From the NCBI GenBank assembly GCA_017399945.1, contig JAFQAQ010000002.1:1-64000 (forward strand): a stretch of 64,000 bases of DNA, read 5' to 3'. A program made the translations under genes and the position numbers. The notes under the pieces were generated by a model. That model was not told the origin of the DNA and searched no databases. It worked only from the letters and a program-made list of their open reading frames with translations. How positions within the stretch are numbered: position 1 is the stretch's first letter; the number at the start of each line of letters is the position of its first letter. Shown here piece by piece: positions 4,169 through 32,900 of the stretch. Origin of the DNA: Clostridia bacterium. GTDB lineage: Bacteria > Bacillota > Clostridia > Christensenellales > Borkfalkiaceae.

Positions 4169-4187
4169 AGTGTTAATAACTTGTATT

Positions 4188-5346: not shown

Positions 5347-5359
5347 ATTGATTTGTAAA

Positions 5360-6211
5360 TTAGTTTATATTAGTTATTGTTTTGGCTTTAATTAGTCTGT
5401 CGCCGTGTATCTTTTTTAGGTGTTTATAGGCGAAATCTCTTTGTTTTTTTGTTAGGTACACGCCGACGACTGCACTGCCACTTCCCGTCATTACGGCACT
5501 ACCCACTTCTTTAAGGTCGTATAAATTAAATTCTATTCTAGGACAAATTTTTACGCTTGCCGAATATAAATCGTTTTTAAGGCTTGATAAAAAGGCTTTG
5601 TATTCGCCGTGACGAAGAAGAGCTATCGCCTTGTCGCACGATACTAGATAGGTTTTGTTTTGTTTGTCGTATTCGCCGTAACACTCTTTTGCCGTTACTT
5701 GTTGTGGGTGAGAGAGAATAAGTAAATAAAACTGTTTGGTTATATTAAGTGACGTTATTTTATCTCCACGCCCTTCCATTAAGGCGTAGCCACCGTTTAG
5801 CATAAACCTTGCGTCACTGCCTAGTTTATCGGCTATTTCGCCCACGTCGCCTTGCACTCCGTAAAGGCGTTTTAGACCTTTTAACACCCCTGCTATATCA
5901 GCCGAAGAACCACCAAGTCCACCACCCAAGGGTATGCGTTTATCTAAAATTATGTCCACGCCGTTGGTTTTGTATTGTTTTACAAACATTTGCGCGGCAC
6001 GATAAGCGTTGTTATCGTGGAAATCACAATCGGTTATAATTCCCTTTTCTTTTAGGTTAATTTGCCCGTCTTCTCTTTTTATCAAAGTTATTTTATCGGC
6101 AAGGTCTATTGAACATACCAACGACTTTAAGGTGTGAAACTTTCCTTCCACACCCGTTACGTCTAAAATTAAATTGATTTTTGCGTACGCGTTTACTTTA
6201 ACTTTTTTCAT
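5360..6211 (-). CDS. ispE: 4-(cytidine 5'-diphospho)-2-C-methyl-D-erythritol kinase
   Basis: IspE phosphorylates CDP-methylerythritol in the MEP pathway for isoprenoid precursors. The 283-residue protein has the expected N-terminal KVNAYAKINLILDV motif, the GHMP-kinase ATP loop PLGGGLGGSSAD near residue 95 and the C-terminal MTGSGSAVVG motif near residue 240. Length matches the family. It lies 14 bases downstream of the DUF3794-LysM coat gene, so the two are probably co-transcribed. Confidence 0.93.
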   Translation of the reverse strand: MKKVKVNAYAKINLILDVTGVEGKFHTLKSLVCSIDLADKITLIKREDGQINLKEKGIITDCDFHDNNAYRAAQMFVKQYKTNGVDIILDKRIPLGGGLGGSSADIAGVLKGLKRLYGVQGDVGEIADKLGSDARFMLNGGYALMEGRGDKITSLNITKQFYLLILSHPQQVTAKECYGEYDKQNKTYLVSCDKAIALLRHGEYKAFLSSLKNDLYSASVKICPRIEFNLYDLKEVGSAVMTGSGSAVVGVYLTKKQRDFAYKHLKKIHGDRLIKAKTITNIN

Positions 6212-6225
6212 TAGTAACCTTTTAA

Positions 6226-7734
6226 TTATCTTAGTTGTCTATATATTACTATACGTTCTTCTCCACTTAACGGGAACTGCAAGTCTGGGTTTATGGCAAC
6301 CACTTGTTCAGGGCTTACGTTAAGTCTTTTTGCAAGCGACCAAAGACTTTCGCCCACGGTTGGAATATATACCGAAAGAGCGTAATCGTCGGTTTTCTTT
6401 TGACCTAAGGATTTTACACCCTTAACTACTTTTATACAGCAGTTACGATGAGGATAAACGGTAAAATAAACCTTTGCCGAAAGTTCTAGTTCGGTTGCAG
6501 AAACCATTCTTATTTTACCACTTTCTGCAACTGCCCTTACTAAATACGCGTAAGAACAATCAAATCCCGTTTGAAGTTTGCAAGTAAATGGAGTTTCAGC
6601 CTTTCTAGTAAACACCCTGCCGTCTAAATCCTTAAAAAAGGCAGTTGCCGTTAAAAGGCCCGTTAGATTAACGCCGTCGCTACACTCGGTACTCACGATC
6701 TCCACGTTTTCGTTAACGCAAGCAAGTAAAGACACCCCTACGGGAAGTTCGTCTATACCAGCTCTACCGATAATTTCTTGTTCAAAACTACGTTGTTCGC
6801 ACGGCTCGATATACTCTTTTTGTTCGCATTCAAGTTCAACTTCTTCGCTAGTAGAAAAAGCGTCGGTAGCTAAATCGTACGTTTGAGAATAGTAGGCTTC
6901 GCCTGATAGTATAAGCACGATTTCCGCGTCTACCGTACTACCACCGTTTTGTTCGTCCACGGCAATATCCGTCTTAAACGATTTTTCACGCACGGTTGCG
7001 TTCGCCGTCATAGAAGGCATTGCGTCCTCGCAATCAATTTCCGCACGGAAAGGCAAGGTTTTGTTTTTTCTTATTATATCGTTTTTGTCCGAAGATTGCA
7101 AGAGTATTGCCGATAAATGCACTTCTCCGTCCACGATAATACACCCAACGCCACACTGAACGGCAGTTATTCGGGCTTCGGCGCGTTGGCTTAGCACTTC
7201 ACTTACCACGCAGTCAATATCAAACCTTTCGCTAAGAGAGAAGACCGTTTCTCGTTGACCGTAACTTTTCAGCATAGTCACTTCCGAAAGGTCGGCAATA
7301 ATGCTTTGCCCACCCGTAAGCGCGTTTACCGTTTGACTTTCGCTTGTTTGCGCTTCTATTATAACGTAAGCGCCCACCGATAGTTTAACGCCCGATAGGT
7401 CGGCTTCGGTTTTATCCACCCTGCCGTACACGTTAAGTTTTGATATTTCTTTGCTACTCGAAGGTAACGTCGTGGTAAATTCAGCCGAACACTCGTATTT
7501 TTTTACCTTGTCTTCGCTATCTAAATAACACACGAAATAGTTTACTACACCGTTGCATTCAAGCCCGTTGTTTACGGGCGAAGTGCTTAGTATCGCTACC
7601 CTAGCCGACAAGTTTAGCATTTTATTAACGCCGTCAGCCGATATTTCCGTTTTACATTCTACTTTAACGCCTTCTTTTGTGCTCCCCTTTTTTAAGGTTA
7701 AACTAATTTCTTCGTATTTTGGTTCTAACGGCAT
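6226..7734 (-). CDS. DUF3794 (SPOCS)-LysM protein, likely spore envelope assembly
   Basis: The 502-residue protein has repeated beta-rich DUF3794/SPOCS domains over most of its length (about 20-445), a domain found in clostridial coat or exosporium proteins. A C-terminal LysM domain (about 452-500, with VPTVGESLWSLAKRLNVSPE and NPDLQFPLSG) should bind peptidoglycan. This architecture is common in Clostridia beside ispE and other sporulation genes. There is no signal peptide, which suits a mother-cell protein that assembles on the outside of the forespore. The role is inferred from the domains. Confidence 0.8.
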   Translation of the reverse strand: MPLEPKYEEISLTLKKGSTKEGVKVECKTEISADGVNKMLNLSARVAILSTSPVNNGLECNGVVNYFVCYLDSEDKVKKYECSAEFTTTLPSSSKEISKLNVYGRVDKTEADLSGVKLSVGAYVIIEAQTSESQTVNALTGGQSIIADLSEVTMLKSYGQRETVFSLSERFDIDCVVSEVLSQRAEARITAVQCGVGCIIVDGEVHLSAILLQSSDKNDIIRKNKTLPFRAEIDCEDAMPSMTANATVREKSFKTDIAVDEQNGGSTVDAEIVLILSGEAYYSQTYDLATDAFSTSEEVELECEQKEYIEPCEQRSFEQEIIGRAGIDELPVGVSLLACVNENVEIVSTECSDGVNLTGLLTATAFFKDLDGRVFTRKAETPFTCKLQTGFDCSYAYLVRAVAESGKIRMVSATELELSAKVYFTVYPHRNCCIKVVKGVKSLGQKKTDDYALSVYIPTVGESLWSLAKRLNVSPEQVVAINPDLQFPLSGEERIVIYRQLR

Positions 7735-13607: not shown

Positions 13608-14420
13608 ATGAATAATAACAACGTATGCAAATTCCCATCTTTTCAAACGGAAAAATCCTTAAAAGCAAACTCTTTCGTGTGGGAAAAAAATCCAGAAATC
13701 ATTAAAAACACAAAACGTCTTGCAAGCAACACCTTGATTTTAGTTACTAACGGGCGTGGAGAAATGACCTTTGACGGAAATACTTTTTATACCATAAAAA
13801 CGGGTTATCTTCTTTTTGGGTTTGAGGGAGAAAGGCTTGCTTGTAAAAACTTTTCTAACTTAGAATATGCCTACGTCAACTTTGAAGGTTTGCGTTCGCA
13901 AGAGTTATTCGACCGTTTTGGGATTACCGACGAAAATAGAATGTTTTCTAACTACGATTTTTTAATACCTATTTGGAAAGAAAGTTTGTTTTCTTCCGAC
14001 CAGTCTAACGTTGACCTTGCTTGCGAAAGCATTATTCTGCACGCTTTTTCCACTCTTTCTCACGCAAAACAACTCGGTCACCCGTTAGTTGAAAAGATGA
14101 AAAAACTTGCCAAGGAAAATTTTTCAAGCGCTCAGTTTGGGCTTTCTTCTATCTCAAACCAATTGAAATATAACTCAAAATACCTATCCCATCTTTTTAA
14201 GAGTTATACGAAAACGGGGTTTACCGAATATTTACGCTCGCTAAGGATAAAAAACGCCGTTTCCTTGTTTGATTACGGACTAGATTCGGTTAAGAACGTG
14301 GCAATCTTGTCGGGGTTTAGCGATCCGTTATATTTTTCTTCGGTTTTTAAAAGCGAAGTTGGACTTTCGCCTAAACAATATATAGAAAAAATCCAAAACG
14401 CACCACGTAAAGAAGTATAA
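13608..14420 (+). CDS. AraC family transcriptional regulator
   Basis: The 270-residue protein has an N-terminal cupin-like sensor region (about 15-150) and a C-terminal double helix-turn-helix of the AraC type (about 165-265). The second helix-turn-helix carries the family signature VAILSGFSDPLYFSSVFKSEVGLSPKQY in part (residues about 229-256). It is divergent from the DMT transporter and oxidoreductase genes and probably controls them in response to a sugar or related ligand. GGAGAG precedes the start. Confidence 0.88.
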   Translation: MNNNNVCKFPSFQTEKSLKANSFVWEKNPEIIKNTKRLASNTLILVTNGRGEMTFDGNTFYTIKTGYLLFGFEGERLACKNFSNLEYAYVNFEGLRSQELFDRFGITDENRMFSNYDFLIPIWKESLFSSDQSNVDLACESIILHAFSTLSHAKQLGHPLVEKMKKLAKENFSSAQFGLSSISNQLKYNSKYLSHLFKSYTKTGFTEYLRSLRIKNAVSLFDYGLDSVKNVAILSGFSDPLYFSSVFKSEVGLSPKQYIEKIQNAPRKEV

Positions 14421-14451
14421 GAAAAACTTATATAAAGAGATAAAAAATATC

Positions 14452-14480
14452 TTTTCATTTGTCCGTTTGCGTGATATAAT
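14452..14480 (+). promoter_or_regulatory. Promoter of the CofE-like gene
   Basis: A consensus -10 TATAAT (14475-14480) with a weak -35 (TTTTCA, 14452-14457) at 17 bases. Confidence 0.5.
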
Positions 14481-14511
14481 ATTTAGGTAAATTTAATTTT
14501 AGGAGATTGGT

Positions 14512-15702
14512 ATGAGCCGTTTATTCGGAACAGTTTCAAGGGGCGTACGCGCACCCATCATCAAAAGTGGCGACGATATCGTTAAGGTAGTAACCGATTC
14601 GGTACTTCTCGCATCAAAGGAAGAGGGAGTTAAATTCCATAATAAAGACGTTGTTGCTATGACCGAAGCTATCGTTGCTAGGGCACAAGGCAACTACGCT
14701 AGTATAGACCATATCGCGCTAGACGTTAAAAACAAACTCGGTGGCCAAGACGTTGGCGTTATCTTTCCTATTCTTAGCCGTAACCGTTTTTCAGTTTGTC
14801 TAAAAGGTATTGCTAAGGGGGCAAAAAAGGTTATCGTTATGCTATCTTATCCATCGGACGAAGTTGGTAACCATTTAATTAGCCTAGACGATTTAGACGC
14901 CAAGGGCGTTAACCCTTATACCGACGTGCTTACTGAAAGTGAATATAGAAAACTTTTCGGCAACGCTAAACACACCTTTACGGGCATTGATTACGTTGAA
15001 TATTATAAATCTCTTATCGAAGAACAAGGCGCAACCGCAGAAATTATTTTTGCAAACAACCCAAAAGCTATCTTAAACTACACTAAAAACGTTTTATGTT
15101 GCGATATCCACACTAGATTCCGCACAAAGAGATTGCTCCGTGACGGTGGCGCGCAAAAGGTTTTCGGTCTTGACGATATATTAAACCAACCTGTTAACGG
15201 CAGTGGCTATAACCCCGAATACGGTTTGCTTGGCTCTAATAAATCTACCGAAGATTCAATAAAACTTTTCCCAAGAGATTGTCAACCTATCGTGGACGCT
15301 ATCGCAAAAAATCTTTTTGAAGCAACCGGCAAAAAAGTTGAAGTTATGGTTTACGGCGACGGCGCGTTCAAAGACCCCGTAGGTAAAATTTGGGAACTTG
15401 CAGACCCCGTAGTTTCCCCTGCTTATACCGACGGTTTAGAAGGTACGCCAAACGAACTTAAACTTAAATATCTTGCCGACAACGATTTTAAGGACCTTAA
15501 AGGCGAAGAATTAAAACAAGCAATCAAACAAAAAATTATGCAAAAAGATTCTAATACGGTAGGTCAAATGGGCACTACTCCAAGACGCCTTACCGACCTT
15601 ATCGGTTCGCTTTGCGATTTAACTTCGGGTTCTGGCGATAAAGGCACGCCGATTATTTGGATTCAAGGTTATTTTGATAACTACACCACCGAAGAAGAAT
15701 AA
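14512..15702 (+). CDS. CofE-like (F420-0:L-glutamate ligase family) protein
   Basis: The 396-residue protein resembles the CofE/F420 gamma-glutamyl ligase family: an N-terminal TVSRGVRAPIIKSGDD region, the acidic DGAFKDPVGKIWELADP stretch and a Gly-Thr-Pro-rich C-terminal loop. In archaea and actinobacteria CofE adds glutamate to coenzyme F420. Clostridia generally lack F420, and no other F420 gene is seen here, so this homologue may glutamylate another acceptor. An AGGAG site lies upstream. It is a single-gene unit ending at a terminator shared with the convergent operon. Family fairly sure, substrate unknown. Confidence 0.7.
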   Translation: MSRLFGTVSRGVRAPIIKSGDDIVKVVTDSVLLASKEEGVKFHNKDVVAMTEAIVARAQGNYASIDHIALDVKNKLGGQDVGVIFPILSRNRFSVCLKGIAKGAKKVIVMLSYPSDEVGNHLISLDDLDAKGVNPYTDVLTESEYRKLFGNAKHTFTGIDYVEYYKSLIEEQGATAEIIFANNPKAILNYTKNVLCCDIHTRFRTKRLLRDGGAQKVFGLDDILNQPVNGSGYNPEYGLLGSNKSTEDSIKLFPRDCQPIVDAIAKNLFEATGKKVEVMVYGDGAFKDPVGKIWELADPVVSPAYTDGLEGTPNELKLKYLADNDFKDLKGEELKQAIKQKIMQKDSNTVGQMGTTPRRLTDLIGSLCDLTSGSGDKGTPIIWIQGYFDNYTTEEE

Positions 15703-15712
15703 TCTTTAATAA

Positions 15713-15746
15713 AAAAAATAAAGGACGGAATTTTCCGTCCTTTTTT
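15713..15746. terminator. Bidirectional terminator between the CofE-like gene and the six-gene operon
   Basis: Perfect stem AAGGACGGAA/TTCCGTCCTT (15721-15742 overall) with A-run on the left and T-run on the right, so it can stop transcription from both sides. Confidence 0.85.
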
Positions 15747-15758
15747 CATTTGATTAAA

Positions 15759-16553
15759 TTATTTTTCGGTAATTACGTCCTGCCAAGTTTTGTGGGTTTC
15801 GTATTTGTTATGTTGAGTGTCCTTTCTTTGCGCGTTCTTTCTACCACGTAAAATCAACACGTCCTCGTAACTATCAAACAAGGTCGCCATAACTTCTTGA
15901 TATTTTTGTTCGTCCACCGTCTTGCAAGAGAATATGTCCATAAGCACTTCGCCCGTCTTGTAGTTATAGTGAAGGGCGATATGACTTTCGGCAATTACCA
16001 CGATACCGGATAGGTAAGATGGGTTATCTACCGTGTCCCTTAAAACGTAAGGACGGCAAATGGGGTGCATATTTACCTTATAAGGTATTCTATCTAGCAT
16101 ATCCATATACTCGTCGATAGTGGGGGCTTTTTCGGCTTTTGCCCTAATTAAATAGTGTGGACCAAAGTCTGCCGTTTGGTATATACCCATATCGTTTTTG
16201 TCGAATTCGTCGCGATGGATAGGTTTCATAAAGAATGAGTCGCAAGGGAATTCCCTAGTGAGCAAGGCTTCCAGAGTTTTTGCGTCTGCGAATCCGTCGT
16301 ATAATAAGTCGGCAAAATAACAGCCGTATTTTGGGAAGGTGTGTATAGTAAAGTGTCCACCTTTAAGCAAAACGAAAGCGCTTATGCCTACGTCTTCGGG
16401 TTCTTCGCAGTAATAATAAGGTATAAGTTGTGGGGGCATAATAGCTTTTACGCCCATAATGTTAATTACCTTGTTTATAACTTCGTAAACGTCCATCAGA
16501 TTGTCAATACGTTCGGTACTGCATCCGTAAGAGTCGATTAATATGTGTTTCAT
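15759..16553 (-). CDS. Tandem-duplicated SpeD/AdoMetDC-like pyruvoyl decarboxylase
   Basis: Bacterial SpeD is about 130 residues; this protein has 264 and contains two SpeD-like halves. In the C-terminal half ESH (189-191), His195 and Cys210 match the order and spacing of the pyruvoyl-forming Ser, processing His and catalytic Cys of Thermotoga SpeD (63, 68, 83). In the N-terminal half the equivalent positions are Gly66, His71 and Asp86, so that half has lost the active serine and cysteine. Self-cleavage before Ser190 would give chains of about 189 and 75 residues. Normally the substrate is S-adenosylmethionine for polyamine synthesis, but some SpeD relatives now decarboxylate arginine or ornithine, which would suit the agmatine-deiminase-like gene in the operon. 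It is the last of six genes and has its own AAAGGAG site. Confidence 0.8.
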   Translation of the reverse strand: MKHILIDSYGCSTERIDNLMDVYEVINKVINIMGVKAIMPPQLIPYYYCEEPEDVGISAFVLLKGGHFTIHTFPKYGCYFADLLYDGFADAKTLEALLTREFPCDSFFMKPIHRDEFDKNDMGIYQTADFGPHYLIRAKAEKAPTIDEYMDMLDRIPYKVNMHPICRPYVLRDTVDNPSYLSGIVVIAESHIALHYNYKTGEVLMDIFSCKTVDEQKYQEVMATLFDSYEDVLILRGRKNAQRKDTQHNKYETHKTWQDVITEK

Positions 16554-16568
16554 AACGTTCTCCTTTGA

Positions 16569-17267
16569 TTATTTAATAACGGTAGCTTCCAAGGAGTTGT
16601 CCAAGGAAACGTATTGATATAAATTTTTTTCAGCAACGAAAGTCTTGTCTTCTAAAACGTACACGATACCGTTTTCATCAACGTGTATTACTTCGCCGGA
16701 AAACAACTGTTTATCGCCCAAAGTAAAGCTTTTATCCTGCTGATTCCAAACTGCGTTAGCCACCCCGTCTGCCTGCGCAACCGTATCGACCATCATTGCT
16801 AGCATTTGGTCCATATCCATATCAGTGCCTTGAAGGGTGTTTAGCCAATCGTAAATTTTGCTGTATATTCTACCGTAAGGACAATAACTGTCTTTGTTTA
16901 TCACGTCGGCAAAAAAGGAATTGTCGCCAAGCGCTTTAACGTCCTTTTGAGCTTCGCCTAAAACGTAGATAACGACGTCTAAATCTAGTTTGGTGGATTT
17001 ATAAAGTCCGTTAAGCACGTTTATTACGTTGGATAAGTTAACCGACTTTTTTTGCGCAAGTTGACGCCTATCGCTATTAAGCCATTTTAGGTAAACCAAT
17101 ATAAACTGCGTTTTTAATATTTTATATACTGCGCCCATACCTTGAACGTCACGTCTGCCAAGATTGTATACTCCGAAAACGAAGTTGCGCATTTCTTCGT
17201 TAGCAAACCGTTCGTTTATATATTGGGCGCACTCTCTATAACTTTCTATCTGCATAGTTTTTACCAT
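16569..17267 (-). CDS. Unknown protein of the six-gene operon (232 aa)
   Basis: No family is recognised. The first about 150 residues look alpha-helical (many Leu, Tyr, Asn and charged residues, with FVFGVYNLGRRDVQGMG near residue 29). The last about 60 residues look like a small beta domain (FTLGDKQLFSGEVIHVDENG). There is no signal peptide or membrane segment. It starts within the stop region of the ParA-like gene (7-base overlap) and lies 15 bases before the SpeD-like gene, so it is an integral part of the operon. An internal ATG at codon 5 is an alternative start. Confidence 0.65.
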   Translation of the reverse strand: MVKTMQIESYRECAQYINERFANEEMRNFVFGVYNLGRRDVQGMGAVYKILKTQFILVYLKWLNSDRRQLAQKKSVNLSNVINVLNGLYKSTKLDLDVVIYVLGEAQKDVKALGDNSFFADVINKDSYCPYGRIYSKIYDWLNTLQGTDMDMDQMLAMMVDTVAQADGVANAVWNQQDKSFTLGDKQLFSGEVIHVDENGIVYVLEDKTFVAEKNLYQYVSLDNSLEATVIK

Positions 17268-18154
17268 TCGTAAAGAATCTTCGCTAGTTTTTGATAACGT
17301 TTATAACCTTCTTTTTCGTCGGGGGTTAGTTCGCCTTGACTGCTAAGTTTATACAAAACGCCTTCCTTCCACTTAAATCTAGTTACTTCGTTTATACCAA
17401 AACAATCTTTTTGAACGAAAGCCCTTTCAACTTCTAAATATTCTATATCTTCAAGTCTTCTATCGATATCTTCTACTGCCGCACTTAGCATGGAAACACC
17501 TTCGATTTCAGCGTCCATTGGAACTACGGTAGGCAATAAAACAACCGTTTTATCTCTGCCTGCTTTGCCGTATTTTGCTGCTAGACGGTGCAAGTAGTTA
17601 AACGTACCGATACGGAATTGATGCGTAGGACGCATACAGAAAACTATTTTGTCCGAAAGGTCAACTGCTAGTTTTGCAGTAAATTGGTCGCCTGCTGCCG
17701 AGTCCATAACGATTGCAACTGCGTTGTGATTTACGGCAAACTTGCTAAGCTTGCTCATAACTTCTTCCATAGTACCCAAAATCTTTCTTGGGTCTAATTT
17801 TTCGCTAGTGTCGTCTACTCCAAGGAACATTACCGCATAGTTATCTTCTAAACCGAGCATGTTTCCTACGGGTACGAATTTTTTGTATAAGGGGTGTTCG
17901 GTTATAGGGCCTTGTTTTTGAATTCCCCAAACTTCTTCGCCTTTTAATAATTCTTTTACGTCGAATTTGCCTTCAAAGAATTTTTCTTGACCTAAAAGAT
18001 AGGTCATACCTGCACTTTCAATATCCATATCGAGCAAAAGCACGGGGGCGTTTTTATGCGCGCCACATTCGTCTGCTAAAAACGGAAGGGTGTTAAAACA
18101 AGTGGTAGATCTACCTGCGCCACCTTTATACGAGAAAAAAGTCGTTATATCCAT
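17261..18154 (-). CDS. ParA/MinD-like (deviant Walker A) ATPase
   Basis: The 297-residue protein begins with a strand and the deviant Walker A motif YKGGAGRSTT (Lys10, with the second Lys position replaced by Arg15), followed by VLLLDMDIESAG (Walker A' type) and a VAIVMDSAAGD Walker B-like strand. Such ATPases position proteins or DNA, or switch partners through ATP-dependent dimers. There is no ParB-like gene or visible parS here, so a plasmid-partition role is unlikely; a regulatory or assembly role in the operon fits better. Its start codon overlaps the stop of the 624-aa gene (TAATG), and its AAGGAGG site lies inside that gene's last codons, implying coupled translation. Confidence 0.82.
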   Translation of the reverse strand: MDITTFFSYKGGAGRSTTCFNTLPFLADECGAHKNAPVLLLDMDIESAGMTYLLGQEKFFEGKFDVKELLKGEEVWGIQKQGPITEHPLYKKFVPVGNMLGLEDNYAVMFLGVDDTSEKLDPRKILGTMEEVMSKLSKFAVNHNAVAIVMDSAAGDQFTAKLAVDLSDKIVFCMRPTHQFRIGTFNYLHRLAAKYGKAGRDKTVVLLPTVVPMDAEIEGVSMLSAAVEDIDRRLEDIEYLEVERAFVQKDCFGINEVTRFKWKEGVLYKLSSQGELTPDEKEGYKRYQKLAKILYEW

Positions 18155-20028
18155 TAGTCGTCCTCCTTACCTAAAAGCGAAAATAATCCTTCTTCGCCCT
18201 TAGCTAGTTTGTTTATCCATTGGTCGATAAAATCGGCCGTTTCTTTTTTAAGTTTATCCATCGCTTCTTCTTTGGAGAGTTTTTCGAACTCAACGCCGAT
18301 AGCGTTTTTGGAAATGAAACTGAACAATAGTTTTGGTAATAGTTCTGCAAAATCGGCGTCGAACCCTTGTAAGTTTTGACGAACTCCTTCGTTAGAAGAT
18401 AAAAGTTTTTGCATTGCTTCTAAAAGCATTTTGCCCGATTCTTCTCTTATTGCAGAACGAATTGCGTTTTCTATCTTAAAACTATCGCGAATTTGTTGTT
18501 TTTCTTTTTCAAACTGCTCGGTAAGTTCAGCTTTTACTTCCCTTTTGATTCTTGGGGTAATTTGAGCAGTTATTTGTTCCTTTTGTTGTTCGCGAATTTC
18601 TTGTTGTTTTCTATATTCTTTTGCGTAAGGTTTTTCGTACGTTTTATAGTAAACGTAGAAATCTGAAATTGCTTCTATATAACGTTCGGAAATCTTAACG
18701 TCGTACTTGCCTTTTTCCCATACCCAATCTTCTTCGTCAATCTTTTCAAAAATATCTTTAAATAATTGTCCCATTTGTTTTACGGGATATCTTAAAATGT
18801 AGAAAGCAACCATGTTGTTAACCTTAACTAACGCAGGTAACAAGGCGTTGTCTGAAAGCATTTTTGGGTTAAGACGTTTTATATATTCAAAGTCGCGTTG
18901 TTGATGCTTACTCTTAAAGGGAATATAGAAGGTGTTAACCAAATAGTCCATACCTTCTTTACACAACTGTTCGTATGCCCTTTGCGCGTTTTGTAGGGTT
19001 GCGTTTAAGGTCATAAGAACGTCGTCTGGGTCTTTACGTAAGTTTACGTAACCGTAAATAAATATAAACGCAATGTAAATACCGTTAAATAAAGCGTTTG
19101 AACTGTTAGATTTTATAATATCGTCGTGGGAAACTTTGTTATATCCACTCAAAAATCCGTCGTCTACGAAATAGTCTTTTAATACGTCCTTATAAATATC
19201 CCAAACGTAATCGGCAACGGCAAAGCAGTTTTCTTTCCAAATCTCTTCGATGGGTTTATCGTTTTTATTTCTTTCGTTAATACGGTCTAAAAGTTCTTGG
19301 TCGACTTTTTTAGCATCGTCCTCGGAATCCACGCTCATCTCGTCGCTTACTTGGTCGGCAGTCATCATGATGTTATCTTCAAAGTCGCTATACGCTTCTA
19401 AAACCGAGTAGGTAAAGAACAACGAACCTCTTTCACAACCGGTGGTGTATGCCCAACCCATAGGCTTGCCGTCTTTTACGATAAACGCCGAGTTAAAGTC
19501 GGTTATAATCTTTCTTATAAGGTCTATAATTTTGTCTTGATATTCAGGATTTATATCGATATAACCCGATTTACTTGCCTTTCTAATACCAACTAAAAAG
19601 CTTAGCGCCCAAGTCATTGCGCCGGTGTAGGAATTGTTTCTAGAAAATAGTTTATCCCCACCGTTTACCCTGTTTTCTTCCTTGGTTAGATATGGGTCAA
19701 GGGTAAAACCGTGTTCTTTAATGTTATCAACTATGTAATAGGTGTTTTTAACTAGTTGTTCCTTTTCTTCGTCGGATAGTTCTAGTTTCATTTTGTTAAT
19801 CAACGAAAGAACACCCGTATAACCGTAGATATCGCTTAGCACGCCGGGAGTTTTGTTGTTCGCGTCCGGATAGAACATTTTTATTCCGTCAACTTCTACA
19901 CGGTGTTTTGCTAAACTTTCAAAAATTCTTGAAGAAACCTCAGCCGAGCGCGCGTAGTTTTTAAACACGCTTCCGCCATCTTCTTCCCTATCTCTTAAAA
20001 ATATAATTTTCTCAACGTCTCTACGCAT
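18154..20028 (-). CDS. Unknown 624-aa helical protein of the six-gene operon
   Basis: No family is recognised. The N-terminal about 450 residues are helical, with motifs such as LFSRNNSYTGAMTWALSFL (about 128-146) and GWAYTTGCERGSLFFTYSVL (about 190-210), reminiscent of alpha/alpha-toroid or helical-hairpin enzymes; this is a weak impression only. Residues about 470-550 form a strongly charged coiled coil rich in Gln, Glu, Lys and Arg. The C-terminal about 70 residues are helical again. It has no membrane segment. The AGGAG site and tight spacing place it firmly in the operon between the deiminase-like and ParA-like genes; it could be the scaffold or effector partner of the ATPase. Confidence 0.65.
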   Translation of the reverse strand: MRRDVEKIIFLRDREEDGGSVFKNYARSAEVSSRIFESLAKHRVEVDGIKMFYPDANNKTPGVLSDIYGYTGVLSLINKMKLELSDEEKEQLVKNTYYIVDNIKEHGFTLDPYLTKEENRVNGGDKLFSRNNSYTGAMTWALSFLVGIRKASKSGYIDINPEYQDKIIDLIRKIITDFNSAFIVKDGKPMGWAYTTGCERGSLFFTYSVLEAYSDFEDNIMMTADQVSDEMSVDSEDDAKKVDQELLDRINERNKNDKPIEEIWKENCFAVADYVWDIYKDVLKDYFVDDGFLSGYNKVSHDDIIKSNSSNALFNGIYIAFIFIYGYVNLRKDPDDVLMTLNATLQNAQRAYEQLCKEGMDYLVNTFYIPFKSKHQQRDFEYIKRLNPKMLSDNALLPALVKVNNMVAFYILRYPVKQMGQLFKDIFEKIDEEDWVWEKGKYDVKISERYIEAISDFYVYYKTYEKPYAKEYRKQQEIREQQKEQITAQITPRIKREVKAELTEQFEKEKQQIRDSFKIENAIRSAIREESGKMLLEAMQKLLSSNEGVRQNLQGFDADFAELLPKLLFSFISKNAIGVEFEKLSKEEAMDKLKKETADFIDQWINKLAKGEEGLFSLLGKEDD

Positions 20029-20044
20029 AATTTTTCTCCTAAAA

Positions 20045-21088
20045 TTAGTTTATGTGTTTGGTTAGGCAATGTAGACCACCGCCGCCTAGACTTGCTTCTC
20101 TTCCGTTATAAGCGATAACCTTTCTATCGGGAAAAGCTTTTGCTATTATATCAAGCGCTTCTTTATCCCTTTCCACACCGTATGTTGGAACGATTACCGC
20201 GCCGTTTACTAACGCAAAGTTGATATACGTTTCAAGCACGGGCTCACCTTCTTTTCTTGGGAAACTTCCGTCCTCGTCGATTATACCATCCGAATCTTCC
20301 TTCGTGCGATAATACATATCGGGAAGGGGTAATCTTATGAGTTTATAAGCATTTCCGTCCACGTCCCTAGCGTTTAGTAAGGTTTTCTCTATTTCTCTTA
20401 CGATTTGGTATTGTGGATTATTTTTATCGTCCGTCCAAGAGTGAAGTATGGTGTGGCTATCAACGAATGCTAGCACGTTGTCCACGTGACCACCCGTTTC
20501 GTCTTCTAGTAGCCCGCGTTCTATCCAAACTATTTGTTTTGAACAAGTTGCTTGTTTTAACAGTTGTTCTACTTGCTCTGGGGTAAATTGCGGGTTACGG
20601 TTATCGTTTATTATAGCGTCCTTAACGCAAAACAAAGTGCCGTTTCCGTCGGGAGAGAAATTACCGCCTTCTAAACACAAGGGACATTCCTTTACGGGAT
20701 ACCCGAACTCTTTTGAGAAGGAATAATCCAAAGCGTCGTCATCGTCCCAAGGTTGATATAATTCCCCACCGTACGCGTTAAAACGGAAGGAAGTTATGTA
20801 TTTTTGGTCGCCTAACACAACGCTACTTACCGTATCTCTCGACCAACAGTCGTTGTATTTTACGGGAATAAGTTTAACGTTTTTGTGGAAGGTGTAGTTT
20901 GCTTTTGCAAAATCCATAAGCTCGGGCAACACGCCGAATACTACCGGTTGAAATTCTGCCATAATATTAGCAAGCCCAACCATAAAATCTCTTATGGGTT
21001 TGCAGTCTGCGCGCCACACGTCCTTTCTGTAAGGGAACAAGACCACTGCTGCTCTCTGTTTTTCAAATTCTCCTGGTAAACGATTCAT
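20045..21088 (-). CDS. Agmatine deiminase family (AguA-like) enzyme
   Basis: Agmatine deiminase converts agmatine to N-carbamoylputrescine and ammonia. The 347-residue protein keeps the whole guanidine-modifying active-site set: Trp82 and Asp85 (NDCWSRDT), Glu140 (LEGGNFSPDGNG), His201 and Asp203 (ETGGHVDN) and the nucleophile Cys341 (GGGGLHC). Length fits AguA. Related Porphyromonas-type peptidyl-arginine deiminases share these motifs, so the substrate may be agmatine or another guanidine. No carbamoylputrescine amidohydrolase gene is nearby, unlike typical polyamine operons. It is the second gene of the operon, 32 bases after the TIR gene, with AAAGGAG upstream. Confidence 0.85.
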   Translation of the reverse strand: MNRLPGEFEKQRAAVVLFPYRKDVWRADCKPIRDFMVGLANIMAEFQPVVFGVLPELMDFAKANYTFHKNVKLIPVKYNDCWSRDTVSSVVLGDQKYITSFRFNAYGGELYQPWDDDDALDYSFSKEFGYPVKECPLCLEGGNFSPDGNGTLFCVKDAIINDNRNPQFTPEQVEQLLKQATCSKQIVWIERGLLEDETGGHVDNVLAFVDSHTILHSWTDDKNNPQYQIVREIEKTLLNARDVDGNAYKLIRLPLPDMYYRTKEDSDGIIDEDGSFPRKEGEPVLETYINFALVNGAVIVPTYGVERDKEALDIIAKAFPDRKVIAYNGREASLGGGGLHCLTKHIN

Positions 21089-21120
21089 TTACTCGTTCTC
21101 CTTTGGTTGCTAGTTTAACG

Positions 21121-22896
21121 TTAATATAGCAACTCGCTGTTATGTTTTTCTAGTATTTTCTTTGCTTGTGGGTTAATAGATATTAGATACTTGAAAGATT
21201 CAATCAAAGGTTTATACGCAGGGTCTTCCGTGCCTAAAATATCGTAGGTCATAACCATATCTTGCATAATGCCCGATACTTCTCTTTCGCCTGTGGTGTA
21301 CCACGCGCCCGAGAAACCCGATTCGCCCACGAATAATCCGAACGAATAACATAGTTTAAGTTTTTCTTCGTCGTTATCAATAGGAACTAATATAAGGTTT
21401 TGCAAGGCCTTTGAAACGGTTGTTTCGTCTAAATCAATAAAGTTGCCTTCTTTATCCTTTTCGATTTCCATCCAATTAGCAAGACGCGGGAATTTTTTAT
21501 CTCCACCCGTCTTGTTTTCAGCCGAATAATCTAACAAATAGTTTACTAACTGAGTCGAACGCGCAACCGACAAAGAAATCTTTTTCATTTGCCATTGTTC
21601 TAACTTTTGTAGTTTAAGCAAATATCCGTGCATACGCTTTATAGACTCAAAGGAAACTACGCTATGATTTTCGGCGTTCTCAACGATTTTAACGAACTCG
21701 CCGATAAACGCAATAAAGTCGTCTGACACCGAAACCATCTGGTCGTAAGCACATTTTTCCCTGTCCCCGTTAAGATATGCAAAGAATTCTTCGGGAACGG
21801 TAAAAACGTCGTCGTAATCAGAATAAGCAAAATAATATTGGCTAGAATCCCTTTCAAAAAGTTCGTTTAGCGCGTCTACGTCCTTTTGGTTTTCTAGGTT
21901 GTATTGCAACACGAAGTCTTTTTGAGTCATGCCGTTCATACCGGCAAAGAAGTTGGGGATTTTGTTTCTTAAACTAAACTCTCTACAAATAAGGCTTACA
22001 ACTTCCCTACGGCTAACTTGGTCCTTTTTAATAAAGTGTTCAAGTTTTTTAACCATATTTTTACAATCGGTTTTAAAATCGTCCGTATAATAGTAGAAAT
22101 ACTTAACGCCTTCTTTTAAAGGAGAATAAATCTTTCTTCCGTTCTTTATGGTTTCGTTACCCAAAAGGTTGCTTGCTATTACCATGCAAGAATAGGTATT
22201 GCAGTCGTAATCGAGCACTTCGTTGGATAAAACGTGCATTTCGGTAAGTCTTTCGGAAGATATTTCGTTACTTGACTTTATGTCCTCACTAACCGTACGC
22301 ATAGAACATTTGTTACCAGCGCAATAGGTTACAAGGTCGGTTAATATATCAGACGCCTTTTCTTGACGGAAAGCCGTTTCCACGTTCTTTAATATGGTGG
22401 TTATGTACTGATCGCGAATTTCTTCCGCGTAACTTATCATAACTTCGTCCGAAGTGTTTTCGTCTATACGGCGAACGATAACTTCGGGGGTAATCCCCGT
22501 GAGTTCTTGAACGTCTTCCGGAATATCTTTTTGTTCGGTTTCGTTAAGAAGGAAAGGTATTATAATTCTATCCTTTGGTTTACTACCTTCGTTACCAAAA
22601 AACAAGTCTAGTTCCTTTCTTACTTCTTTTGAGGAGATAGAATGCTTTGAAACTAGCCATATAAACACGCAACATTCGTCTATGTTTTGTTTTATTACTT
22701 GTGGGTATCTGTCACCGCTTATGTTTCTGTCTTTACCGTGCTCGTCGTACATACACCAGTGATTTAGTTTTAAAGCTTCTATACGCTTGGTAAGTTTAAG
22801 CGCAAGCGCCTTGTCTTTACTTGAAATAGAAGTAAACACAACCGTTCTTTTTGCGTTCAAATTCGCAAGCGTTGAATAGAAAGTTACCATATCCAT
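21121..22896 (-). CDS. TIR-domain protein, first gene of the six-gene operon
   Basis: The 591-residue protein has an N-terminal TIR-like domain (about 15-150): a VVFTSISSKDKALALKLTKR first strand and helix, an IWLVSKHSISSKEVRKEL region with Ser83 and Glu95, where TIR NADases have the catalytic Glu, then an IIIPFLLN strand. The rest (about 170-591) is helical and unrecognised; it may sense a ligand or bind the partner proteins. Bacterial TIR domains often cleave NAD+ or make cyclic ADP-ribose signals in antiphage defence, but activity here is untested. No membrane segment. A promoter lies at 23022-23050, with a leader of roughly 120 bases and AGGAG before the start. Confidence 0.75.
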   Translation of the reverse strand: MDMVTFYSTLANLNAKRTVVFTSISSKDKALALKLTKRIEALKLNHWCMYDEHGKDRNISGDRYPQVIKQNIDECCVFIWLVSKHSISSKEVRKELDLFFGNEGSKPKDRIIIPFLLNETEQKDIPEDVQELTGITPEVIVRRIDENTSDEVMISYAEEIRDQYITTILKNVETAFRQEKASDILTDLVTYCAGNKCSMRTVSEDIKSSNEISSERLTEMHVLSNEVLDYDCNTYSCMVIASNLLGNETIKNGRKIYSPLKEGVKYFYYYTDDFKTDCKNMVKKLEHFIKKDQVSRREVVSLICREFSLRNKIPNFFAGMNGMTQKDFVLQYNLENQKDVDALNELFERDSSQYYFAYSDYDDVFTVPEEFFAYLNGDREKCAYDQMVSVSDDFIAFIGEFVKIVENAENHSVVSFESIKRMHGYLLKLQKLEQWQMKKISLSVARSTQLVNYLLDYSAENKTGGDKKFPRLANWMEIEKDKEGNFIDLDETTVSKALQNLILVPIDNDEEKLKLCYSFGLFVGESGFSGAWYTTGEREVSGIMQDMVMTYDILGTEDPAYKPLIESFKYLISINPQAKKILEKHNSELLY

Positions 22897-22953
22897 AGAG
22901 GTAAAATCTCCTATAAATCAAAACTCGTAATATTGTAGGCAAAAGGCTTGCTT

Positions 22954-22982
22954 TTATATACTTTTTACCCTTTTTACCCTTT
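22954..22982 (-). repeat. Short direct repeats in the leader of the six-gene operon
   Basis: The minus strand reads AAAAAGGGT twice in a row followed by AAAAAG, between the promoter and the TIR start. This could be an operator or a slippage-prone tract; no known site is recognised. Confidence 0.35.
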
Positions 22983-23021
22983 TTTAGCGCGCGTGGACGC
23001 ACTTATATAAATACAAAATAA

Positions 23022-23050
23022 AGTATAACATACATTTAATAAAATTACAA
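23022..23050 (-). promoter_or_regulatory. Promoter of the six-gene operon
   Basis: Minus strand: -35 TTGTAA (23050-23045), 17-base spacer, -10 TATACT (23027-23022). It lies just past the terminator of the SIS/kinase operon, so the six genes form their own unit. Confidence 0.65.
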
Positions 23051-23055
23051 GAGAA

Positions 23056-23090
23056 AAATTAAAAACCACGCGGAGTTTATCCGCGTGGTT
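23056..23090 (-). terminator. Terminator of the kinase-SIS operon
   Basis: Stem AACCACGCGG/CCGCGTGGTT (23064-23073, 23081-23090) with a 7-base loop and a U-rich tract on the minus strand. Confidence 0.85.
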
Positions 23091-23103
23091 TTGCTTGGGT
23101 TTA

Positions 23104-23754
23104 TTAATATCCGTACTTTTCGTAATGAACGTCTATTATCTCTTTGTTATACTGCATGCCGTCGGCGTAGTTTGCGCTTTTCAAAATACCCGGAACGTAT
23201 CCTGCTTTAAGCATTTTTTCAACCAAACTTGCAGTTATGCTCCACATAATAAAATCAGAGCCAAAACCACTTGCCGCACCGAACTTTGCTTCAATCCCCT
23301 CCACGTCTAGCATCGCTTCTGCTGCGGGAGCGCAGTTATCTAGTGTAAAGGTAGCAAACTCATAAAGTTTTTTGCCAGATTCATGCACGGGGTCAACTTG
23401 GGTTGCGTATTCCATACTAGTAAGAGCAATTACCTTTATCCCCTTTTGAACGCAGTCGTATGCAAAATCAACAACGGGTTTAGTTCTTCCCGAAACCGAA
23501 CTTACCACGACTACGTCTCCTTTTTTAAGTTCGGTAGTATCCTTATCGTATTTTTTATAAAAAACAGGACCACCGCCACGTCTTATAATATCCATTTCTA
23601 TACCGTGGCAAATGCCCGAAAGATAAATTTTTCCGCCACCTAAAATGGTTTCCATAAAAATATCCGCGCACTTTTCAATGTTTTCTCTTTGGGTAGTCCT
23701 TACCTTATAAAGTAAGTCGCCGATAGCTTGTTGGTATCTGTCTACTAATTGCAT
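23104..23754 (-). CDS. SIS-domain protein (216 aa)
   Basis: The SIS (sugar isomerase) fold is seen in the Rossmann-like core with KKGDVVVVSSVSGRTKPVVDFAYDC near residue 95, a phosphosugar-binding pattern, and in the N-terminal ETILGGGKIYLSGICHG region. Together with the neighbouring 246-residue SIS protein it resembles UPF0309-type proteins, and both probably act on amino-sugar phosphates made by the kinase encoded upstream. It may form a heteromer with its paralogue. An AAGGAG site precedes the start, and a terminator follows. Confidence 0.75.
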   Translation of the reverse strand: MQLVDRYQQAIGDLLYKVRTTQRENIEKCADIFMETILGGGKIYLSGICHGIEMDIIRRGGGPVFYKKYDKDTTELKKGDVVVVSSVSGRTKPVVDFAYDCVQKGIKVIALTSMEYATQVDPVHESGKKLYEFATFTLDNCAPAAEAMLDVEGIEAKFGAASGFGSDFIMWSITASLVEKMLKAGYVPGILKSANYADGMQYNKEIIDVHYEKYGY

Positions 23755-23766
23755 AATTTTTTCTCC

Positions 23767-24507
23767 TTACATATAAAAAATATTATCTTTGTATTCTTCT
23801 ATAACTTTTTTGTTAAACTCGTCACCACCGTCCATATTACCACTCTTAAACACGGGCGGGGTTACGCCACTTTCAAGCAAAAGTTCGTCTGCACGGGCAA
23901 CCACTGCGTTAAGTATTGCAGCGCCCACAGCAGTAGATGTTGCCGAAACCTTTTGGTCAAACCCATCAAGTTCAACCACTGCGTCACCAACGACGCCACA
24001 GTTATCTATCACGACGTCGCCAAAATGATGAAGCATTTTGCCCGACGGGTGACGAGAAGTTACTCCGTTTGCCATCTCTAAACTAGTTAGCACTATTACC
24101 GTAAGACCTGCCTCTTTTGCGCTTTTTGCCATATCGATAGTAACGTTGTTTCTACCCGATACCGAGTGTATTATCATAACGTCACCCTTTTTGGTTTTAA
24201 GCCCATCGAAAATAATCTTTCCGTAATCGGTTAGCCTTTCCATTTTACTGCTAGAAGTAATCGGTGTAATTTCTAGCATCATACCCGGCGCTCTAACGGG
24301 GTTAATAGTTACCATACCACCCGTTCTATAAAACAATTCGAACGCCAAAAGCCCTGCGTGATTACAGCCGAAAGCAAATATGGAATTTTTGGTTTTGTTT
24401 GCGTCTGCTATTATTTTTGCAGCTTTTTCCATAGCTTGCTTTTGCGTAGCGTTAACTTTTTCTAAAATCTTCGTCACCTTGGACATATAAACGTCTAATG
24501 CACTCAT
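23767..24507 (-). CDS. SIS-domain protein, UPF0309-like (246 aa)
   Basis: The protein has the UPF0309/SIS pattern FAFGCNHAGLLAFELFYRTGG near residue 43 (HAxLLAxEL-type) and MIIHSVSGRNNVTIDMAKSAKEAG near residue 113. It is a likely phosphosugar isomerase or lyase. The start overlaps the end of the kinase gene by 4 bases, and its paralogue follows after 12 bases, so kinase and both SIS proteins act in one pathway, most simply amino-sugar salvage. Exact reaction unknown. Confidence 0.78.
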   Translation of the reverse strand: MSALDVYMSKVTKILEKVNATQKQAMEKAAKIIADANKTKNSIFAFGCNHAGLLAFELFYRTGGMVTINPVRAPGMMLEITPITSSSKMERLTDYGKIIFDGLKTKKGDVMIIHSVSGRNNVTIDMAKSAKEAGLTVIVLTSLEMANGVTSRHPSGKMLHHFGDVVIDNCGVVGDAVVELDGFDQKVSATSTAVGAAILNAVVARADELLLESGVTPPVFKSGNMDGGDEFNKKVIEEYKDNIFYM

Positions 24508-29880: not shown

Positions 29881-29915
29881 AAAACACAGGTGTTAAACCT
29901 GTGTTTTTGTTTTTT
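29881..29915 (+). terminator. Terminator after the dNTPase-like gene
   Basis: Stem AAAACACAGG/CCTGTGTTTT (29881-29890, 29898-29907) followed by T-rich sequence. The A-run at its left may also serve the convergent MACPF gene. Confidence 0.8.
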
Positions 29916-32900
29916 AAGTAAGTGACGAATTTAGCTGTGTACATGCAACGTACACACCCGTTTTACTATATCCCTTACTATATGAGTAAGCTATATCTAG
30001 ATTCGCGGTTCTAGCGCCTCCATTAACAGAGTTGCCTGACTGCAATGCAGCGTTTTTATTCATTAACCCAGCTATTCCCCCGGCGTTTGAATATGCATCG
30101 TACGCACGATTTGCACCATCACCCCAAGAACAGCCCTTTGAAGTTACGGTAACGTTATTCGTTTTACATCCTGTAATTGAACCGCCTTTTAAATAGCCCG
30201 CAACACCACCAACAGAAGCTTCTACGTATTGTCCGTCATATTTTACCGCTCCTGTTCCGGTTATTTTACTATCTGAAACAGAACAATTTCTAATCTTACC
30301 AGTACTGCTTCCAACAACACCTCCGACAAACACGAATTTCCATTGAGAATCAGGACCATGGTCAGAACGTGCGTAACAATTAATCTCCGAGTTAGTTGTA
30401 GTACAATTTTCAACTACTCCTTTACTCCACACGTCGCCAGCAAAGGGCCCCAAGATTGTAAGCCTTGTTGATTTAACTCCAGTAGAATTGTTTGCTTCGA
30501 CAGAATACTTCGCTCCACTTATTGTTAAATTCCTAATTGTACCGGTAAGGTAATTAACAAAACCATACGCTCTATTGGAGTTCATATCTGCGCTAACACT
30601 AATTGTTAAATTTGTTAACTTATGTCCATCCCCATCGATTATCCCACTAAAAGGTGTTGAAGAAGTTCCAATAGACGCAGGAGTTTTTCCTTTCATATCA
30701 ATATCTTTAATTAGAACGTAATTCCCAGCGAGATTCTTGCTTATTAAATTCACCACTTCGTCAGGGGTTTCTATGTACGTATATCCTACGTATGACTGAG
30801 CCCACTGCGCATATAAAGTGACCGTGCCTGGAATTATACGGTTCCATTTACCATTAGAATCCGTATAACCACTTACACTACTTACAAGTTTTCCACTAGC
30901 ATATGCTATTTGAATTCCACCCGTTGCAGACGTAAACCAACCCTTAAACACGTAGTATTTCGAATAGGTTGTTGCCTTTGCAACGCCTATTTCTTTGGTG
31001 GAACCGTGTTTTGCAGTAATCGTGTTTACCAAATTAAAACTGCCTTTTAGTTTTTCCGAATTGCTTTTGAAGCTTATTGAGTTTGACGTAATCTCCCATT
31101 GAGCATAAAGTTTTACTGCTTCAGAACTAGTAAAAGACCACTTCCCATACAAATCCGTATAACCACTAACGTTTTTAATCAATTGTCCGTTACTATCTGA
31201 GATTTGTAAACCACCAGTTGGAGCAGAATACCAACCTTTGAACAAATAAAAATCTCCAAAAGATTCTGACCTTGCTACGTTTATTGTACTCGTTACACCA
31301 TACTTTGCATTTTGTATTTCTCCAACCACGTTAAACTCGCCACTATAATTATCAACGTTTAATTTATAGTCTAGCATGTAAGAATTTATAGTCCAGTTTG
31401 CCGTTATCTTAACGTCTTTAGCAGGCATTGTAGTTGGAATCTCCGGACTCCAACCCGCAAAAGTATATCCTTCTTTTGTCGGGTTAGCAGGCTTAATTAT
31501 CGTACTTCCGTATTCGCTTGTAATTGCATCGATTTGACTTCCACCAACTGTATCAAAGGTTATCGTATATAAGTTAACCTGCCATAAAGCCATAATCTCC
31601 AAGTCCTTCGCCGGCATACTCGACGGAACTTCTACGCTCCATCCCACAAAGGTATAACCTTCTTTTATAGGATCTGCTGGTTTGGTAACAGGCATTCCAT
31701 ACTCACCGTTAATCGAATTTATAAAACTTCCACCATTAGTATTAAAAGTAATTGTACATATATTAATCTGCCATAGGGCCTTAATTTCCAAATCTTTGGC
31801 TGGCATATTTGATGGAATTTCCACGTTCCAACCTACAAAAGTATATCCTTCTTTTGTCGGATTAGCAGGCTTAATTATTTCACTTTCGTATTCACTTGTA
31901 ATTGCATCGATTTGACTTCCACCATCAGAGTCAAACGTTATCGTATACGAATTAATGGTAAACGTTCCATAGACATTCAAATTTTCAGCAGGCATTACAG
32001 AAGGCAACTCCATTTGTCCATTTACTAACCAACCGCCAAAACTATAGCCCGTTTTGCAAGGTTGAAAAGTTGGTATTTGGTATCCTTTAATAACTTCAAC
32101 CATTCTTTCAACTTGATTATCTACATAATACGTGATTATAAATTTAACTTGTTCAAATCCGCCATCTATTCTTATAGATTCCGCCGGCATAGTTGTAGGA
32201 AGTTCTCCGTTGGCATATGACCACCCTAAAAACACTTTCCCTTGTGTATTGGTTGGATTTGCAATATAATTTATGACTTCGCCATACTTATAGTTTTGAC
32301 TCGTATACAAAGTGCCATCAACGTAATAGGACAAGCTAAAAGTTTTTAAGATTAAAGCCCCTGTTAATTCAACGTCTTTGCTCGGCATCGTGGATGGTAT
32401 TTGTTTGTTCCCATTTTTCCAACCACCGAATTCGTATCCATCCATGCTAACGTCTAGAAGCATAATCGTTTCACCATACTCGTAACTTTCAACGTAATAT
32501 TCTTCTCCGTCAAGTATGTACGTTAAATTATAACTGTTAACATTCCACTTTGCATATAGTCTATACACACTTTCTTGTGGCTTAAACTCTGCAAATTCTT
32601 TTAGATCTATTTTAATACCATTTAGATACCACCCAACGAAAGTATACCCTTCTTTATAAGGTTGAACTTCGGAAACCTTAAAATTTCTTTCAACGTCAGT
32701 ACTTTGGGTTTCTATCTCAAACCCAAATTCGTTGTACACGCAACTCTCTCCGTCAAAATCAACAAACTCTACGTAGGATTTTTCTGTTTTCCATTTTGCA
32801 TATAACGTTGTATCTTGGGTGATTTCAGTTTCAAAATAAAACTTCTGTAATAAATTCGCGTCCTTATACCACCCCTCTAAGAGGTAGTACGTCTTTACAG

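Follow-up and report, generated by a model that had tools for sequence, protein, structure and literature searches.

The genome of a Clostridia bacterium of the family Borkfalkiaceae (assembly GCA_017399945.1) carries a six-gene operon that represents a genuine system in which TIR and a ParA-type ATPase are combined with a variable module of amino-acid enzymes; the system is absent from the libraries and the open-licence literature searched. The operon lies within positions 1–64,000 of contig JAFQAQ010000002.1, a stretch of 64,000 nucleotides that was analyzed as a whole and is hereafter referred to as the window. The operon itself is genuine and more than a chance arrangement, since many genomes share its gene order. 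Judging from sequence, the most likely explanation of the system is immunity involving a dedicated amine. Taken jointly, the features suggest a rare conflict system, probably directed against phages or other mobile elements, in which an ATP-switched complex, a TIR NADase, and a dedicated amine acting as ligand or cofactor would work together, a composite reading that we hold tentatively and at somewhat below an even chance. If true, this would be a TIR-based system equipped with its own amino-acid-to-amine enzymes, linking NAD+ signaling and polyamine chemistry. Two protein families of its core have no match in any of the libraries searched.

All 6 open reading frames (ORFs) of the operon (Table 1) are on the minus strand, span positions 15759–22896 and, as described in an earlier reading of this DNA made from its letters and ORFs (the sequence-only reading), overlap or are separated by short gaps of −7 to +32 bases (32, 16, −1, −7, and 15 bases in order from the TIR gene to the SpeD gene). 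Sites resembling ribosome-binding sequences precede 5 of the 6 starts, as judged by eye. The enzyme and domain calls of that reading for 4 of the genes were borne out by Pfam, NCBIfam, and PADLOC, which name a TIR domain, PAD_porph/agmatine deiminase, a KGGVGR-type ATPase, and the S-adenosylmethionine (AdoMet) decarboxylase family, the last matching in 2 stretches, in agreement with the proposed duplication of the SpeD-like enzyme. The 624-amino acid (aa) and 232-aa products, described as unknown, have no match better than E 0.03 in the same 3 libraries; they are referred to here as TOR (a working name) and U232, respectively.

Of 61 close genomes, 3 were found to carry TOR, among them that of the window; in the other 2, it stands beside the same ATPase. 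Because the 3 ATPases share the motif SYKGG[AS]GRST, their P-loop was chosen for a wide scan, in which 84,980 genomes were searched for [ST]YKGG[AS]GR[ST]T (the DNA pattern admits a few other residues as well), yielding 58 pattern loci. The 48 loci analyzed below comprise 45 extended pattern loci, loci L006 and L007 (on the contigs of which, as matched by length, lie the pattern loci L034 and L052), and the window. The remaining 11 pattern loci were set aside; by profile, 8 of them carry the ATPase, and a weak TOR, a TIR domain, and a CxxCxxCC protein were recognized in L030, L038, and L055, respectively. Genes were classified with iterated profiles and loci were assigned to types by us, including L102, a cut locus with no visible enzyme gene that we placed in type IV, in agreement with its position in the ATPase tree.

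The constant core of the system consists of TIR, TOR, a KGG[AS]GR ParA-type ATPase, and the U protein, combined with an enzyme slot that varies among 4 types of loci. TOR adjoins the ATPase in 47 of the 48 loci, the exception being L102, a 4-kb contig. TIR is present in 44 loci (recognized by eye in L090 and L091), the 4 without it lying on short or cut contigs, and 38 loci encode U separately (the sequences of L107 and L110 stop short of it). Type I (11 loci including the window, 10 of them complete and L105 cut) has the order TIR-deiminase-TOR-ATPase-U(short)-SpeD, and type II (21 loci, 3 of them cut) the order TIR-TOR-ATPase-U-SpeD, with an additional CxxCxxCC gene before TIR in L082 and L085. 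Type III (8 loci) is arranged as TOR-ATPase-U/TIR-CxxCxxCC protein-pyridoxal phosphate (PLP) decarboxylase, with the CxxCxxCC gene in 7 of the 8 loci and the decarboxylase in 6, and type IV (8 loci, 2 of them cut) as radical SAM/SPASM enzyme-TOR-ATPase-U-TIR, with TIR first in L108. Over the 48 loci, the slot holds SpeD in 30, the deiminase in 10, the CxxCxxCC protein in 9, a radical SAM enzyme in 7, and the PLP decarboxylase in 6. The fixed six-gene set of the sequence-only reading therefore gives way to a four-gene core with differing enzymes, the deiminase being confined to type I (10 of 48 loci).

The supposition that the genes stay together in distant genomes was substantiated by the 47 further loci with the constant core, the hosts of which are mainly gut Clostridia but also include Erysipelotrichaceae, Bacilli, Treponema, Fibrimonadales, and a Methanomethylophilaceae archaeon. 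Moreover, a search with SpeD only in 200 genomes of the window's order returned 5 matches (2 known and 3 new), all 5 in a complete operon, so that the homologs are not found mostly apart. In the ATPase tree, types II, III, and IV each form one side of a branch, which could not be shown for type I, and the 4 types need 3 changes, the least possible, indicating that the enzyme sets were inherited with the core.

Two unrelated decarboxylases occur within this one system family, SpeD in types I and II and a PLP-dependent Orn/Lys/Arg decarboxylase in type III, which is the best evidence that amino-acid decarboxylation is the needed reaction and argues for amine making by the system. The pairing of polyamine- or arginine-type enzymes with TIR was thus the right theme of the sequence-only reading, as a second, non-homologous decarboxylase appears in another lineage. 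The type III enzyme (OKR_DC_1, E 1.1e-71 in L095) has 2x3l as its nearest solved chain, and its gene overlaps the preceding gene in 4 of the 6 loci. The decarboxylase of L079 (oriented 14231–15926) is encoded by a short gene (353 aa), the end of which overlaps an antisense ORF resembling, by eye, the start of Cas9.

The tandem SpeD of the window combines an N-terminal domain without the processing serine and a C-terminal domain with S190, H195, and C210, which is a predicted pyruvoyl decarboxylase. These 3 residues are invariant in 30 of 30 operon SpeD sequences, and their spacing equals that of S63, H68, and C83 of the Thermotoga maritima enzyme; in the N-terminal domain, Gly takes the place of the serine in all 11 type I sequences and in 9 of the 19 of type II. 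According to the available passages of a study of SpeD homologs (PMC10407285; the same passages are meant throughout), true AdoMet decarboxylases retain a proline that is not conserved in arginine decarboxylases, and Gln, Thr, Phe, and Tyr are the 4 residues diagnostic of SpeDC ornithine decarboxylases. In the alignment, the HTxPE proline, presumably the one meant there, has no Pro counterpart in any of the 30 C-terminal domains. Immediately before the Ser, type I sequences have Glu (11/11; the deiminase is seen in 10 of these loci and L105 is cut) and type II sequences have Gln (22/22, made up of 19/19 of the survey and 3/3 of the new loci). Accordingly, the deiminase accompanies the Glu form and is seen with none of the Gln forms, although in one type II locus with the Gln form, L087, the deiminase slot lies off the contig. 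If this Gln is the diagnostic one of the ornithine decarboxylases, as seems probable, the split fits what the arginine/ornithine logic of PMC10407285 would predict.

The operon enzymes resemble SpeDA and SpeDC of PMC10407285 in the Ser/His/Cys triad and its spacing, in lacking Pro at the aligned position, and, in type I, in having an agmatine-deiminase-like partner, with the provisos that the identity of the proline is presumed and that the deiminase scores below the AguA cut-off. They differ in being tandem proteins with a degenerate N-terminal and an active-looking C-terminal domain, encoded together with TIR in a host in whose genome no clear SpeE or AguB was found. A SpeD fusion with a degraded C-terminal domain has been put forward to model how the eukaryotic enzyme arose (PMC10407285); the tandem found here is the reverse of that arrangement.

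The deiminase of the window has named agmatine deiminases as its best solved chains, is 35–65% identical to the 9 other operon deiminases, and shares with them D85, E140, H201, D203, and C341 (invariant in 10/10), which we take to be the catalytic residues. It resembles the agmatine deiminase AguA over its full length and in these conserved residues, but scores 306.8 bits against the AguA equivalog TIGR03380, short of the 381.8 cut-off, and no AguB partner was found in the host genome.

A rival explanation treats the enzymes themselves as weapons. In such a multi-effector depletion system, once activated, decarboxylase and deiminase would drain arginine (or another amino acid or AdoMet) and TIR would drain NAD+, so that infected cells stop growing. 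The enzymes share an operon with a TIR domain bearing the catalytic Glu, and different lineages use different enzymes consuming amino acids or AdoMet, as expected of interchangeable effectors. However, pyruvoyl ornithine decarboxylases of the SpeD family are slow, with kcat/Km of 113 to 3600 per M per s (PMC10407285), and hence poorly suited to rapid depletion, and the enzyme set follows the ATPase tree (3 changes for 4 types), unlike freely shuffled effectors. We consider depletion rather unlikely.

The type IV loci invite a different thought, namely that the slot enzymes (PAD-family deiminase, SPASM enzyme, CxxCxxCC protein) modify a protein of the system and thereby arm or disarm TIR. The type IV enzymes score best with peptide maturases, and PAD_porph is named for peptidyl-arginine deiminases, but SpeD and OKR decarboxylases use free amino acids or AdoMet, as established for both families, the deiminase is nearest to agmatine deiminases, and the intergenic spaces of the window could hardly accommodate a precursor peptide (the gaps do not exceed 32 bases, and 207 bases lie upstream of the first gene). 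We hold protein or peptide modification to be a very doubtful explanation. Next to the radical SAM gene in 2 type IV loci are L109:358–1206 (+), an amino-acid-kinase gene, and L110:4356–5234 (−), likened to it by size and place only; the former, and perhaps the latter, may belong to type IV.

Among the core proteins, TOR has no significant match in Pfam, NCBIfam, PADLOC, or PDB, and a profile of 44 TOR sequences neither matched a solved structure at better than E 0.3 nor pointed consistently to any Pfam family. Its length varies from 600 to 890 aa across loci, and its C-terminus looks coiled-coil-like by eye. An alpha/alpha-toroid fold, guessed from repeat-like motifs, received no support from structure and Pfam profile searches. 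The ATPase of the window has the P-loop SYKGGAGRST, its best NCBIfam match being NF047398 ("KGGVGR-motif variant"; 57.1 bits, under the 90-bit cut-off), and K10, G12, D42, D44, and D151 are invariant with 2 distant homologs. U232 corresponds to the N-terminal approximately 200 aa of long U proteins (740–840 aa) of type II and 4 type IV loci, with profile matches of E 2.8e-57 to 1.1e-33 near residues 10–230. In type III, U is fused with TIR (7 proteins compared as a set, profile match 94%). The idea that U and the C-terminus of the TIR protein are one split protein, hinted at by alignment, was abandoned, as profile comparison gave it a probability of only 0.4%.

The TIR protein of the window consists of an N-terminal TIR domain and a C-terminal region of approximately 430 aa that belongs to no known family and occurs in type I loci, with full-length matches in 9 other type I loci. 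The catalytic-type Glu column (Glu95 in the window protein) shows no variation among the 44 operon TIR domains aligned, suggesting that the protein may split NAD+. Also encoded in the window, at 48748–50592 (−) and unlinked to the operon, is another TIR protein (614 aa), which by eye has RCC1-like repeats.

Effectors other than TIR may have been recruited by relatives of the core. Four of the 11 ATPase pattern loci that had been set aside were considered (L140–L143). In L140 (Desulfuromonadales), a distant TOR stands beside the ATPase, and genes for a 241-aa protein and a CxxCxxCC protein come next; a gene for a Card1-type CARF endonuclease lies upstream, at 5646–6776 (+). L141 (Thermoplasmata; 1851–6706, +) combines a distant TOR (93.7%) and the ATPase with a CHAT/C25 peptidase and an unknown protein of 270 aa related to the 241-aa protein of L140, and in L142, the upstream side of which is lost at the contig end, a CHAT protein gene follows the ATPase. 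No TIR was seen in L140, L141, or L142. In L143 (Alphaproteobacteria; 1043–6287, −), genes for a TIR, a kinase-like, and a 709-aa protein are on the contig of a KGGSGR ATPase; no TOR was found there, the 709-aa protein not being TOR. The replacement of TIR by CHAT near related ATPases, seen in 2 loci (L141 and L142), looks like the effector exchange of conflict systems.

The explanation that we prefer, immunity with a dedicated amine, envisages an ATP-dependent sensing and switching complex of TOR, the ParA-type ATPase, and U that, once triggered, would permit the TIR protein to cleave NAD+ and so halt the cell, as its catalytic Glu suggests. The enzyme slot would supply a small amine to the system: in the window, the C-terminal SpeD domain would decarboxylate an amino acid, most likely arginine to agmatine, which the deiminase would convert to N-carbamoylputrescine, and in type II the product would most likely be putrescine, from ornithine. 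As its ligand or cofactor, the amine may set the state of this complex, tying the switch to the amino-acid or amine status of the cell. The amine hypothesis lends itself to a direct test with a small number of purified proteins, given that the lineages fill the slot with unrelated decarboxylases. A bolder variant, which we deem quite improbable, would have TIR join the amine made by the decarboxylase and deiminase to ADP-ribose, producing a signal read by the TOR/ATPase/U complex, by analogy with histidine-ADP-ribose (His-ADPR) of type II Thoeris but with an acceptor made for the purpose; agmatine is a classical ADP-ribose acceptor. According to the available passages of PMC12847820, TIR NADases act either by draining NAD+ or by producing signals such as His-ADPR, and they also catalyze base exchange.

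In keeping with the statement of the sequence-only reading that it knew of no described system with this gene set, the set matches no system in PADLOC-DB 2.0, and among the open-licence papers searched no title pointed to such a TIR/ATPase/decarboxylase system. The likeness to Thoeris ThsB, SpbK, and other antiphage TIR effectors is a TIR domain with the catalytic Glu, to which the operon adds the constant TOR and U, the ParA-type ATPase, and metabolic enzymes. The TIR protein of the window matches ThsB models weakly (best 3.9e-6), and none of the 6 operon proteins matches the ThsA effector, whether of SIR2-SLOG, TM, or macro type, at E 0.1, so that the pairing of ThsA with ThsB that marks Thoeris is lacking. 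Some KGGVGR ATPases (NF047398) adjoin FxsC TIR-like proteins and radical SAM enzymes. The operon resembles them in the P-loop type, the nearby TIR, and, in type IV, the SPASM enzyme, but its ATPase falls below the family cut-off (57.1 versus 90 bits) and TOR and U match no library model. The Fxs system joins FxsC to an FxsA precursor and an FxsB maturase. The TIR protein of the window matches FxsC_Nterm at only E 0.0023 (17.9 of 130 bits), and the operon has no radical SAM gene and no precursor gene that could be seen; FxsA was not searched for. With the NTP-dependent conflict systems (available passages of PMC7159879), the system shares a constant core with differing effectors (here TIR and CHAT), but the NTPase classes described there are MoxR/vWA and GTPases, unlike the ParA type here, and the word "deiminase" is absent from the main text of PMC7159879.

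The system is rare and patchily distributed. Among 391 genomes of the class (searched with a three-row profile) and 398 of the phylum, TOR was found in the window's own genome only, the other class match (L008) being false, a seryl-tRNA synthetase. In the host genome (93% complete), no other SpeD and no OKR PLP decarboxylase were found; there is no clear SpeE (a marginal match only, 22.6 bits, to a 182-aa frame) and no clear AguB (2 nitrilase-fold proteins at 45–53 bits, one in a longer fusion, were judged unlike N-carbamoylputrescine amidase), leaving the product without evident further use there. Such a setting might also suit a function outside immunity, with the operon serving gut anaerobes as a regulated stress or polyamine module: the decarboxylase and deiminase would produce amine and ammonia to counteract acid, or supply a polyamine, under the control of TIR and the ATPase. 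The absence of another polyamine pathway from the searches of the host genome, the mostly housekeeping flanks, and the failure to see TOR in plasmids or phages speak for such a module; the patchy spread (TOR in 3/61 relatives and in the window's own genome only among the 391 and 398, SpeD in 5/200 of the order), the TIR domain, the lack of a product-using enzyme among those sought in the host, and the lack of a decarboxylase in the surveyed type IV loci speak against it. We regard it as unlikely.

Several observations weigh against an immune function served by a dedicated amine. The decarboxylase is missing from the archaeal type III locus L101 (type III L007, which also lacks it, is cut), and the type IV SPASM enzymes, with peptide maturases as their best models, fit simple amine making poorly. 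Decay or misassembly is possible in some loci, as the ATPase of L088 has an internal stop and TOR of L079 is spread over 2 frames. The operon has an ordinary GC content (39.4% versus 39.7% in the rest of the window) and hence bears no sign of recent import, and searches of plasmid and phage collections with TOR found nothing. The neighbors are mostly housekeeping genes, the 25 Pfam families shown of 130 in the flanks being mostly metabolic. In a PADLOC scan of 123 of the 146 nearest genes, at most 11 of the 123 match 10 PADLOC models, with 1–2 members each and no control set for comparison, so that the defense-island setting suggested by the sequence-only reading is not supported so far.

Other comparisons concern the surroundings of the operon and its relatives. 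The largest cross-locus cluster of shared neighbors comprises 7 of 263 flanking genes. Among the phage collection, 4 records match SpeD of the window at 27–29% identity, and both annotated ones are named SpeD genes; a SpeD search of viral contigs returned none. One viral contig matched the ATPase alignment, through an unrelated KGGVGR protein, and the P-loop pattern hit one viral contig with no ATPase seen among its listed ORFs. The gene adjoining the operon, at 14512–15702, is present in 17 of the 37 genomes searched, including the window's own; in G016, the only relative with neighbors listed, its counterpart is followed by other genes, so that the comparison yielded no exact empty site.

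The boundaries of the operon were also examined (Table 1). The terminator proposed at its end was recovered as a hairpin between the operon and the converging gene 14512–15702, and another terminator-like hairpin separates the upstream gene from the operon. The single promoter proposed in the sequence-only reading is suitably positioned within the 207 bases upstream of the first gene, but the call is weak: the region contains 30 promoter-like sites versus 28.6 ± 4.8 in shuffled sequence, that is, no excess, and because candidate sites are as common in shuffles, it is position that speaks for one promoter. No Rfam match was found across 15000–24000.

Table 1. Genes and candidate signals of the operon in the window.
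Feature	Coordinates	Strand	Evidence
TIR protein, 591 aa	21121–22896	−	TIR_2, E 3.5e-11
Agmatine-deiminase-like enzyme (PAD_porph), 347 aa	20045–21088	−	PAD_porph, E 1.8e-87
TOR (working name), 624 aa, unknown fold, core marker	18154–20028	−	Recurs beside ATPase
ParA/MinD-like KGGVGR-type ATPase, 297 aa	17261–18154	−	NF047398, E 2.9e-15
U232, 232 aa	16569–17267	−	Profile matches to long U proteins
Tandem SpeD-like enzyme, 264 aa	15759–16553	−	AdoMet_dc, E 1.9e-25, 2 stretches
Terminator-like hairpin of upstream gene	23062–23092	−	13 pairs, then T-rich tail
Terminator-like hairpin, operon end versus converging gene	15720–15743		10 pairs
Candidate promoter TTGTAA-17-TATACT with TG	23022–23050	−	9/12 matches

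Elsewhere in the window, 2 large ORFs were characterized by eye: a 1742-aa lipoprotein-like ORF at 29914–35142 (−), with a MACPF-like N-terminal part and InlB-type repeats, and a 3786-aa surface-adhesin-like ORF with repeats at 50711–62071 (−).

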